From: an uncultured Clostridia bacterium
GTDB lineage: Bacteria > Bacillota > Clostridia > Oscillospirales > Acutalibacteraceae
DNA length: 46,359 nucleotides
Reading direction: 5' to 3'
Assembly (NCBI GenBank): GCA_946184295.1
Contig: CAMHEZ010000018.1
Span: forward strand, 1-46,359
Under the pieces are notes generated by a model that ran no database searches, was not told where the DNA came from, and was given only the letters and a program-made list of their open reading frames with translations. A program made the translations under genes and the position numbers. Positions 2-2,231 of this stretch are shown here, piece by piece. Position 1 is the first letter of the stretch, and each line of letters starts with the position of its first letter.

Positions 2-457
2 GCCGGTCTGACCTATCAGTGGCAGCTTTCCGACGACGCGGGCAAGACGTGGCGGAACAGCTCTACCAAGACCGCAAATTACAGCACTACCCTCTCCGAC
101 AAGAACAACGGACGGTATGTGCGTTGTATCGTGACCGACAAGTACGGCAATTCGGTCAAATCCGGCGCGGCGAGTATGAAGATCACCACACTGAAAATCA
201 CCGCGCAGCCGGTCAATCAAATCTTAAAGAAAGGCGCGACAGTCTCCTTCAAGGTGGCTGCCACCGGCGCCGGTCTGACCTATCAGTGGCAGCTTTCCGA
301 CGACGCGGGCAAGACGTGGCGGGACAGCTCCACCAAGGCCGCGACCTACAGCACCACTCTGAGCGACAAGAACAACGGACGCTATGTCCGCTGTATCGTA
401 ACCGATAAATACGGCAATTCGGTCAAGTCCGGCGCGGCAAGCATGAAGATCAAGTAA
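2..457 (+). CDS. C-terminal part of a repeat protein with bacterial Ig-like domains (5' end outside window)
   Basis: The reading frame is open from the left edge, so only about the last 151 residues are present. Two copies of a unit with a period of 267 bp (89 residues) are visible. Each carries a Y-Q-W-Q strand, the segment LSDDAGKTW, an N-G-R-Y-V-R-C-I-V strand and a K-S-G-A-A-S-M-K-I end, a pattern typical of bacterial Ig-like surface modules. The two copies are almost identical at DNA level, which implies recent duplication or conversion. The protein ends directly after the last repeat with no LPXTG, transmembrane anchor or choline-binding tail, so any surface attachment must lie upstream. 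A secreted adhesin or cell-wall protein is inferred; the substrate cannot be told. Confidence 0.8.
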   Translation, partial: AGLTYQWQLSDDAGKTWRNSSTKTANYSTTLSDKNNGRYVRCIVTDKYGNSVKSGAASMKITTLKITAQPVNQILKKGATVSFKVAATGAGLTYQWQLSDDAGKTWRDSSTKAATYSTTLSDKNNGRYVRCIVTDKYGNSVKSGAASMKIK

Positions 458-545: not shown

Positions 546-1607
546 TCAATTCAAATATCGCTCCACAAACTGCGCTTCGTCCGCCGCCAGCATACGCCGC
601 GCCAAGCTATCCGCCGTTTCGATTAACATACGCTGGTACGTACACTGCACCGGCGACACTTCGCCCATATCGCCGCACTGCTGGAAATTCAGGCAGGCAC
701 AGTCGTTGACGCACCGCGATTCCAGCGCACAGCCCCGGCAGAACGACGGTTTGACAAGGCTGCGCCGATGAATCCTTTCCCGCACGGCCTCGTCAATGCC
801 GGTCTTCACCGTTCCTATCTGATATTCCGGCAATCCCCCGAACTGAATGCACGGGTAGATCGCTCCGTCCCAGTCAATGTAAAGCTTGCGGTGCCCCAAG
901 TCACACACATGGCAGGGCTTTTGTTTGGTGATACTCAGGATTTTCTCGTCAAAGGCATTGAAGGAAATCCGTTTGCCCTCCTGAAAGGCGGCGAATATGT
1001 AATCCGCGATGATATGAAGCTGCCGACCCAGCTCGTCCATGCTGTCGTCGTTCCAACCTGCGTCAGGGCGGGAATCAATCGCCAGATTGACCTGCCGCGC
1101 CCCTTTGGCATACAGGGAAATGACCGATTCCGCCGCCTGCGTCACGCAGTCCGCCGCCAGCGTCGCCATGATGAAGGCCTTCGGCTGCCAGCGCAGCAGC
1201 AGCATGAGCTTTTCGTCCAGCAGGGCGAGACAGTCCCGTCCGTCAGCATACAGCCGGTTGACCCGGCTCATCAAACCGTCGTGGGAGAGGGCAATTTTGA
1301 TACGGTTGTCACAGGCAAAGGTCAGAAATTCCTCGTCCAGCAGCAGGCCGTTGGTGGTCATGTTGTACCGGAACTCTTTTTCAGGGTGGGCAGTTGCGAC
1401 CCGCTCGACACACCGGTAAATCAACTCCTTCCGCAGCAGCGGTTCGCCGCCGAAGAAGGAAATACCGCCTTGTTTTTTACCGTCACCCGCCAGCAGGTCC
1501 ACCGCCGCCAGCGCGGTTTCCTCCGTCATGAAGACATGCTCATGCGACTCAAAGCAGTACCGGCACCGCAGATTGCATTGCTTTGTCAGAATCAATGTGC
1601 CGTTCAT
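546..1607 (-). CDS. Radical SAM/SPASM peptide-modifying enzyme
   Basis: 353 residues. The radical SAM cluster motif CxxxCxxC is at residues 11, 15 and 18, and GGEP is at 53-56. A SPASM-type C-terminus has cysteines at 232, 235, 253, 290, 293, 299, 303, 305, 311 and 322, enough for two auxiliary Fe-S clusters. Proteins of this design reductively cleave S-adenosylmethionine and modify peptides or proteins (sactipeptides, ranthipeptides, anaerobic sulfatase maturation). Its ATG overlaps the stop of the upstream lipoprotein-like peptide gene (ATGA), so the two are translationally coupled, and a second paralogous peptide lies just upstream. No sulfatase gene is nearby. The inference is that the two small peptides are its substrates; the chemistry (thioether, epimer or C-C link) is not predictable from the sequence. 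Fold class is near certain, substrate is not. Confidence 0.85.
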   Translation of the reverse strand: MNGTLILTKQCNLRCRYCFESHEHVFMTEETALAAVDLLAGDGKKQGGISFFGGEPLLRKELIYRCVERVATAHPEKEFRYNMTTNGLLLDEEFLTFACDNRIKIALSHDGLMSRVNRLYADGRDCLALLDEKLMLLLRWQPKAFIMATLAADCVTQAAESVISLYAKGARQVNLAIDSRPDAGWNDDSMDELGRQLHIIADYIFAAFQEGKRISFNAFDEKILSITKQKPCHVCDLGHRKLYIDWDGAIYPCIQFGGLPEYQIGTVKTGIDEAVRERIHRRSLVKPSFCRGCALESRCVNDCACLNFQQCGDMGEVSPVQCTYQRMLIETADSLARRMLAADEAQFVERYLN

Positions 1608-1927
1608 TGAGAAAATTCTCCGTCTTGCGGCATAGAAACGACATCGCCGTCCAACAGATACGGCTCATCGTTTCCCTCATCGGCAGACTCCACCATGATC
1701 TTGCCCTCATAGGGAAGCTGGCCGCCGCTCTTGGCGTCGGATTCGGATACACAGGACGAACCGCCGTCCGGGTCCTGATACGGCACGTCCCCCGCATAGG
1801 ACATATCCTGCTTGCAGCCGGTCAGACCGCCGAGCAGCGCCGCTCCCATCGCACCGATGGCAAATTTTTTCAAAAAAACCTCACGGGAATAGCCCGCATC
1901 GTAACGCTCTGTTTTCTTCAATTTCAT
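1604..1927 (-). CDS. Small lipoprotein-like acidic peptide A, candidate radical SAM substrate
   Basis: 107 residues starting at MKLKKTERYDAGY, with GGAGG nine bases before the ATG. An unusually long polar N-region (1-21) is followed by a hydrophobic Gly/Ala segment (22-35) and L-T-G-C with Cys38, which fits a lipobox. The mature part is strongly acidic and holds a second Cys59 within C-V-S-E-S-D, preceded by Y-A-G, Y-Q and D-G. These spaced motifs are shared with the paralogue immediately upstream, while the last 40 residues diverge. The stop codon overlaps the radical SAM start. Two readings fit: a small lipoprotein, or a RiPP-like precursor whose leader is the N-region and whose core is the conserved Cys/Asp-rich block. 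I recognise no named family. Confidence 0.75.
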   Translation of the reverse strand: MKLKKTERYDAGYSREVFLKKFAIGAMGAALLGGLTGCKQDMSYAGDVPYQDPDGGSSCVSESDAKSGGQLPYEGKIMVESADEGNDEPYLLDGDVVSMPQDGEFSQ

Positions 1928-1943
1928 GATATGATACCTCCTG

Positions 1944-2231
1944 TCACACCTGCGTATCTTCTGAGGAAACAGATTCTTCCGACGCAAATCGCTTCGGCTC
2001 CACATAGAATGTTTCACTGCCTGTGACAACTTCGTCCTCAGCTATGTCCGACTCCGACACGCAGACTTGCGCCCCGTCATACTCCTGGTAGGTCATGCCG
2101 CCCGCATACGTCGCACACGCGGACAGACTGCCAATCATCGCGGCGCCCAACGCTCCCATCGCGCATCTTTTCAGAAAATCCTCGCTCGTATAGCCCGCAC
2201 AATAGCTCTCCGTTTTTTTCAGCTTCATCAT
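1944..2231 (-). CDS. Small lipoprotein-like acidic peptide B, paralogue of peptide A
   Basis: 95 residues; AAAGGAG lies six bases before the first of two adjacent ATGs (2231 or 2228). The N-terminus MMKLKKTESYCAGY and the segment F-L-K-R followed by a Gly/Ala helix and L-S-A-C (Cys39) parallel peptide A. After the lipobox come Y-A-G-G, T-Y-Q, D-G and C-V-S-E-S-D (Cys57), then an acidic Ser/Glu-rich tail. It has extra cysteines at 11 and 23 that peptide A lacks. The stop lies just ahead of the peptide A ribosome binding site, so B-A-radical SAM form one operon. A TTGACA sequence sits about 50 bases upstream of the start, but no good -10 is spaced with it. The duplication with conserved motifs around Cys57/59 points to selection on that block. 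Confidence 0.75.
   Translation of the reverse strand: MMKLKKTESYCAGYTSEDFLKRCAMGALGAAMIGSLSACATYAGGMTYQEYDGAQVCVSESDIAEDEVVTGSETFYVEPKRFASEESVSSEDTQV

Follow-up and report, generated by a model that had tools for sequence, protein, structure and literature searches.

The window, a stretch of 46,359 nucleotides from contig CAMHEZ010000018.1 of an uncultured Clostridia bacterium of the Acutalibacteraceae (GCA_946184295.1), carries close to its start a small operon on the minus strand. It encodes a radical SAM/SPASM enzyme of 353 aa (546..1607), recognised by its Pfam Radical_SAM domain, its conserved Cys and its AlphaFold2 model, and two lipoprotein-like substrate candidates, namely a protein of 107 aa (1604..1927), homologues of which are present in 18 of 18 genomes of the genus, and its paralogue of 95 aa (1944..2231). 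The two small proteins are 45% identical and have in common the blocks MKLKKTE, Y.AGY, the lipobox Cys, YAG, YQ, DG and CVSESD. The stop of the 107-aa gene and the start of the enzyme gene overlap as ATGA (1607-1604). A first-pass annotation of this DNA had described the paralogous pair with its shared blocks and lipobox Cys, this overlap, and a SPASM enzyme with ten C-terminal cysteines, and all of these features were confirmed. Neither small protein matches a curated family in Pfam, NCBIfam or PHROGs. A phage origin of these peptides was rejected, there being no match in PHROGs, as was a Tat signal, as the NCBIfam matches (13.9 and 11.3 bits) lie under the cut-off and the twin Arg is lacking. 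At the contig start and convergent with the operon, positions 2-457 (+) encode the last part of a protein in which a repeat occurs twice in almost identical form (GLTYQWQLSDDAGKTW ... KYGNSVKSGAASMKI), with a PKD match of 26.9 bits against a cut-off of 23.5; this frame runs off the contig.

Both small proteins have an n-region, a hydrophobic stretch and a lipobox Cys, and their host genome encodes Lgt (two matches) and LspA. In the 107-aa protein, residues 1-20 (MKLKKTERYDAGYSREVFLK, 1868..1927) form a leader ahead of the hydrophobic stretch, supported by the leaders of the genus and the profile built on them, and the predicted lipidated residue is Cys38 in LTG-C (1814..1816), invariant in 20 genus leaders; its counterpart in the 95-aa protein, supported by the same leaders, is Cys39 in LSA-C (2115..2117). 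The mature parts carry short glycine-containing boxes that are candidate modification sites, located by pattern: YAGDVPY at residues 44-50 of the 107-aa protein (1778..1798) and YAGGMTY at residues 42-48 of the 95-aa protein (2088..2108), both soon after the lipobox, and LDGDVVS at residues 92-98 of the 107-aa protein (1634..1654), which is a box of the DGD[VI][AV]Y type found near the C-terminus in members of the genus. For YAGDVPY and LDGDVVS the assignment also draws on enrichment of the pattern over shuffled sequences. The 107-aa protein has a further, looser box, YEGKIMV (residues 73-79, 1691..1711), which was picked out from the sequence and lies outside the counted pattern. The CVSESD block, which the first-pass annotation had proposed as the site of modification, occupies residues 59-64 of the 107-aa protein (1736..1753) and residues 57-62 of the 95-aa protein (2046..2063).

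The enzyme matches Pfam Radical_SAM with 48.0 bits (cut-off 29.5) and Pfam SPASM with 21.0 bits, slightly below the cut-off of 21.5. SPASM maturases have a pattern of seven cysteines, C-x9-15-G-x4-C ... C-x2-C-x5-C-x3-C ... C. The window enzyme has both the radical SAM motif, C11-x3-C15-x2-C18, and the full SPASM pattern, C235-x12-G-x4-C253 (with G248), C290-x2-C293-x5-C299-x3-C303 and C322, and these are kept in 61 of 61 aligned relatives, as is an additional Cys305; the ten cysteines from residue 232 onward are 232, 235, 253, 290, 293, 299, 303, 305, 311 and 322. The protein thus belongs to the radical SAM superfamily, by motif and domain, and to the SPASM maturases, by its cysteine pattern. 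No curated family covers it. The nearest is PapB (NCBIfam NF047865), for which the window enzyme scores 170.3 bits and two relatives 221.8 and 175.9 bits, all under the cut-off of 340; for the aligned relatives, too, no curated family is nearer than PapB (61 of 61 at E < 1e-40, best E 4.7e-72). By sequence, the best solved relative is CteB (5wgg, E 5.2e-62), and an anaerobic sulfatase maturase (4k37) is also among the best. In the AlphaFold2 model (mean pLDDT 95) the first barrel strand lies right at the beginning of the protein, which therefore appears to be without a leader-binding domain ahead of the barrel. No RRE domain is seen ahead of the barrel in this model, and no further conserved gene was found at the loci beyond the genus; some RiPP systems do without an RRE. 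Among the relatives, three enzyme frames are interrupted, by one stop (L090, 5001-6047), by one TAG (L166, genome G399) and by two TAA (L169, genome G231), which may reflect decay, sequencing error or recoding.

Enzyme and small proteins belong together. All 18 genomes of the genus encode the small protein and exactly one close enzyme, and in 17 of them both lie on the same contig; this association is not due to chance. In the exception, G008, the peptide gene (L053, 12377-12682, -) and the enzyme gene are on separate contigs, and the peptide gene still adjoins an oxaloacetate decarboxylase gene, its usual position in this genus. Beyond the genus, we compared 81 enzyme loci, consisting of the window and the best 80 of 441 confirmed relatives in the species genome collection. 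These best 80 come mostly from rumen and gut Clostridia, with a few from Verrucomicrobiota, Kiritimatiellota and Lentisphaerota and one from a record named Bacteroidota. A partner lipoprotein, either of the small type found in the window (class A) or of a larger type (class B), is present at 73 of the 81 loci (71 found by profile; two, the class-A-like proteins of L081 and L138, recognised by eye), a count that is not independent of our reading because the class-A seeds were taken upstream of the enzyme and on the same strand. Of the 71 profile-positive loci among these 81, 53 have class A only and 17 class B only, and the last, L116, has a single class-B gene in which another frame weakly matches class A. 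Loci hold one to four such lipoproteins, so that the pairing emphasised in the first-pass annotation is not an essential feature. All partners found by profile lie on the strand of the enzyme, and in 62 of the 71 loci the closest partner frame on the upstream side stops no more than 60 bp before the enzyme start or overlaps it; the partner is placed downstream of the enzyme at L108, L112 and L123, and 2.3 kb upstream at L141. The loci without a partner comprise five at contig ends (L096, L107, L110, L114 and L124), the genus member with the split locus (L072), and two of Kiritimatiellae (L117 and L122) where the enzyme is present and no partner was found within the stretch examined.

Searches of whole genomes lack the bias of upstream, same-strand seeds; their counts cover only part of the first-look candidates in each genome (e.g., 19 of 35). 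In a sample of 150 genomes of the family, 15 encode the enzyme at E 1e-30 or better, seven of them at E < 1e-50 and the other eight with more distant proteins; class-B genes occur in four genomes, all among the seven with a close enzyme and all adjacent to it. Among 391 sampled genomes of the class, 16 encode the enzyme, and the eight genomes with class B and the six with a full-length class-A leader (E < 1e-7) are all among these 16. The two remaining enzyme-bearing genomes are G490, where a class-A protein ending in IELAGDVSYIDEED lies directly upstream, and G231, where the enzyme frame has two stops and no clear partner is seen. With E up to 1e-4, the class-A search returned 24 of the 391 genomes; the weaker matches cover the hydrophobic half. 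Among the weak matches (E 1e-6 to 1e-4) in enzyme-free genomes, 18 of the 20 loci examined have an ordinary lipoprotein signal of the MKK type without the K..Y..P.Y leader (L150 has P-V-F), and the matches at L190 and L191 have no sensible lipoprotein signal. Homologues of the peptides living widely without a radical SAM neighbour, which the first-pass annotation had named as counter-evidence, were thus looked for, and none was found without the enzyme in the genomes sampled.

The class-A proteins, 79 in number (24 from the genus and 55 others, leaving out the class-B protein of L105 and the hybrid of L087), are characterised by a recurrent leader, K..Y..[PG].Y, that precedes the signal peptide. 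In 20 genus leaders, M1, Y9, G12, Y13 and the lipobox Cys are invariant, and in 39 distinct class-A leaders with the Cys at position 30, P12 and A15 are found in 39 of 39 and Y14 in 38 of 39. Near the N-terminus, P.[YF] is present in 55 of 55 class-A proteins from outside the genus and [ADPS]GY in 24 of 24 from within it. Searched across the 18 genomes, the profile of the genus leader gives 26 full-length matches, none of them away from the known loci, and four partial matches (E > 1e-4). Judged by the sequences, the conservation of the class-A leader exceeds the needs of a signal peptide. A predicted lipobox is general among the clostridial members.

Downstream of the lipobox, the mature parts contain a recurrent box, V-x-[LY]-x-G-[DEG]-V, in which the preferred letters around the Gly are V at -4, L or Y at -2, A, D or E at -1, D, E or G at +1 and V at +2. 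The pattern L.G[DE] occurs 28 times in the 24 genus proteins (in 20 of them) versus 1.5 times in shuffled sequences, and 87 times in the 55 other class-A proteins (in 43 of them) versus 7.7 times; this is 11 to 19 times the shuffled count, and none of the 500 shuffles came near the observed values. A wider pattern, [LIYM].G[DENG], is found in 73 of the 79 class-A proteins, with up to six copies in one protein, and is absent from six. Its density is 2.5 per 100 residues in the set of 81 that still included the proteins of L105 and L087, versus 0.24 in nine other lipoproteins of the same loci.

The CVSESD block behaves differently from these boxes. The pattern C.S[DE]SD is present in only two of the 24 genus proteins examined, both from the window itself, and the block was rejected as a conserved site. 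Any Cys besides the lipidated one is absent from nine of the 24 genus proteins and 21 of the 55 others, that is, 30 of the 79 class-A proteins, with the enzyme kept; in 10 of 53 class-A loci no mature part contains such a Cys (Cys-free partners are found at, e.g., L065 and L076), a count that leaves out L077 because its second protein, outside the class-A set, has Cys. The first-pass view of a maturase and its substrates is therefore retained as regards the association, seen on one contig in 17 of 18 genus genomes and at 73 of 81 loci, and abandoned as regards modification at Cys57/59. Cys donors in the core, as expected of a sactipeptide, are likewise lacking in those 30 proteins. These observations also bear on a ranthipeptide system like PapA/PapB, in which the enzyme would link the Cys of CVSESD to the side chain of a nearby Glu or Asp and the lipobox would be incidental. 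PapB is the nearest family for 61 of 61 relatives (E < 1e-40; 170 bits for the window) and the best solved relative, CteB (5wgg, 5.2e-62), is a thioether-forming maturase. Moreover, PapB accepts Cys-Xn-Asp with n of 0-6, and also Glu (PMC9413430), a tolerance that CVSESD would fit, and Cys-Xn-Asp/Glu is found in both window proteins. Yet the PapB cut-off is missed (170 of 340 bits), and a substrate Cys that is absent from so many class-A proteins and from whole loci makes this explanation unlikely.

Class-B partners, of about 260-320 aa, have a longer leader than class A, K.Y..P.YP ... P.LL..P.RW, followed by a membrane stretch, a Cys-containing core HG.G.GSFGC..V.PP.FLSEEEA and the C-terminal motif LR.QVRDF..WL. 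They do not contain the L.G[DE] box as such, and the modification site may differ between the two classes or lie elsewhere. A structural model of the class-B partner has a mean pLDDT of 78 and a large, apparently folded part; five partners scanned gave no Pfam or NCBIfam family over the cut-off, and no relative was found in the PDB at E up to 10. In the verrucomicrobial class-B members L086, L115, L131 and L143 the hydrophobic stretch is not followed by a lipobox Cys, so that a plain signal seems likely in these proteins and the lipid-bearing Cys would not be the target. The two classes are linked by a hybrid at L087 (3960-4844, +), which has the leader and C-terminus of class B and, between them, the class-A boxes LDGD, LEGE and LAGA. 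A class-B relative in G339 has VVLAGDAYV after the lipobox, and its leader YNAGYP resembles YDAGYS of the window. In genome G340, an enzyme relative (L213, 4856-5968, +) is without the Cys aligned to 235, 253 and 303, and its class-B partners are likewise without the Cys of GSFGC, a possible joint loss of cluster and substrate Cys.

Partners are also encoded away from the enzyme. G223 has two lipoproteins inside contigs of 131 and 173 kb (C13 and C8; L208, 1159-1884, -, and L209, 873-2135, -) in which the full leader K.P.YA is followed, soon after the lipobox and adjoining the lipid Cys, by IEYAGET and VEYMGDT, and then by long parts that are unrelated and without a Pfam family over the cut-off. 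Leader and box thus travel together to two unrelated off-locus lipoproteins in one genome. G340 has a class-B gene, flanked by polyamine genes, on a different contig from the enzyme, and in G263 a second class-B gene lies at the start of another contig, a placement that may reflect an assembly gap only. The largest partner lipoproteins reach 357 aa.

Only partner lipoproteins recur beside the enzyme beyond the genus; the other recurring neighbours are limited to the genus or are overlapping frames, and one gene family found in 10 non-genus loci varies in distance and lies on both strands. Oxaloacetate decarboxylase genes next to the operon are found again at 13 of 18 genus loci and nowhere else, which is read as shared ancestry. 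A sulfatase or another fixed non-lipoprotein substrate beside the enzyme, the second counter-evidence named in the first-pass annotation, was rejected, since no such gene recurs beyond the genus. A tree of 61 enzymes explains the class-A label with one change (91/87) versus 17 in shuffles; enzyme tree and partner class agree far beyond shuffles, and some long branches make single placements unsure. The comparison of neighbourhoods gave no peptidase, exporter, immunity gene, sulfatase or SCIFF peptide that recurs beside the enzyme beyond the genus.

This weighs on the possibility of a classic RiPP natural product, such as a bacteriocin or a signal, of which the lipoprotein would be a transit form from which a housekeeping protease frees a small modified peptide. 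A tandem of small, acidic precursors with repeats, encoded next to a single SPASM enzyme, would suit such a pathway, and their Gly-containing repeat cores resemble the TVGG repeats of TvgA (PMC9062424). However, the neighbourhoods outside the genus show no recurring peptidase, exporter or immunity gene, partners extend to 357 aa, and large, apparently folded parts are present in class B and in both off-locus lipoproteins; we regard this explanation as improbable. That the enzyme targets something else, such as a folded surface protein or a small molecule, with the lipoproteins as co-regulated accessories (e.g., chaperones or sensors), would accommodate the two enzyme loci without a partner and the wide variation of the mature parts in length and sequence, but is very improbable given the substrate-like pattern of a conserved leader before the signal peptide and repeated boxes in a variable tail, the two to four paralogous partners at a locus, and the common history of enzyme and partner class.

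We therefore prefer, and consider fairly probable, a Cys-independent system of a radical SAM/SPASM maturase and exported lipoprotein substrates, in which the leader would be recognised and the boxes modified before export. It builds on the genes, the leader, the lipobox, the boxes, the co-occurrence and the shared history, which are directly supported; that the enzyme acts on the lipoproteins, that the leader binds it, that the boxes are its sites and that the steps follow the order given below is what we infer from them. The enzyme would recognise the leader, which lies at the extreme N-terminus of the lipoprotein precursor and precedes the signal peptide. Before the precursor leaves the cytoplasm, the enzyme would modify the V-x-[L/Y]-x-G-[D/E/G]-V boxes of the later mature protein. 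Export by Sec would follow, after which Lgt would lipidate the lipobox Cys and LspA would cut, leaving the protein anchored at the outer face of the membrane with modified boxes close to the anchor and further along the tail. A Cys thioether is an improbable product; our guess is one loss of 2 Da per box, corresponding to a C-C or C-O bond, or an unsaturation, at the Leu/Tyr, the Gly or the acidic residue. Of the features of a RiPP system, a conserved leader, repeated boxes and linkage to the enzyme are seen, and leader recognition and box modification are putative. Since the system has no conserved protease, transporter or immunity gene of its own, a modified surface protein is indicated rather than a released antibiotic.

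A wider reading can be advanced, tentatively and with doubts that outweigh our confidence in it. Here the operon would be part of a general pathway in which one cytoplasmic enzyme reads an N-terminal address and places a novel mark, not dependent on Cys, on the V-x-[LY]-x-G-[DE] boxes of several surface lipoproteins, some of them encoded far away (two in G223, class B in G340), giving a chemically modified lipoprotein coat or stalk; such a pathway would mature proteins, as lipidation does, instead of making a natural product.

Most known substrates of radical SAM maturases are small peptides that are released, along with a few enzymes. In these gut and rumen bacteria, a radical SAM enzyme is paired with small exported lipoproteins that are probably modified before export; these likely substrates, which can be as long as 357 aa, would be marked prior to export and then anchored at the surface. 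If this is correct, surface proteins of abundant rumen and gut Clostridia carry a new modification, a leader and a signal peptide are joined within one N-terminus, and a short, repeated, Cys-free box becomes available on which a new reaction may be sought. The analysis also exposes gaps in the curated libraries, of one enzyme family and two partner families. A search of open-access papers and family libraries yielded no description of lipoprotein substrates for a radical SAM maturase; subscription papers may hold one.

Among known systems, the CteB SCIFF maturase (5wgg) and the anaerobic sulfatase maturase (4k37) have the same pattern of SPASM cluster ligands, but act on other substrates, and neither a sulfatase nor a SCIFF peptide recurs at the loci described here. 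Sulfatase maturase, too, modifies an exported protein. PapB/PapA (NF047865) resembles the present system in that a SPASM enzyme adjoins a precursor with repeated acidic motifs, but differs in that the partner here needs no Cys and is an exported lipoprotein, and in that the enzyme model has no domain ahead of the barrel. TvgB/TvgA, which yields poly-cyclopropylglycine, is similar in that a SPASM enzyme acts on short Gly-containing repeats with no requirement for Cys or an aromatic residue, and so provides a precedent for the modification of Cys-free repeats of this kind (PMC9062424). In that system, however, the repeat is TVGG, maturation of TvgA involves an oxidase and peptidase/transporters, and the paper mentions neither lipoprotein nor signal peptide (PMC9062424). 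Finally, the RiPPs modified by MNIO enzymes, such as the bufferins, share the cytoplasmic modification of substrates with a Sec signal; about 16% of Buf2 have predicted lipoprotein signals, and modification of Sec-signal proteins before export is termed unusual for RiPPs (PMC12452194). Those systems employ an iron-dependent MNIO, Cys-based motifs and a partner protein, whereas the system described here would combine a radical SAM enzyme with Cys-free boxes.
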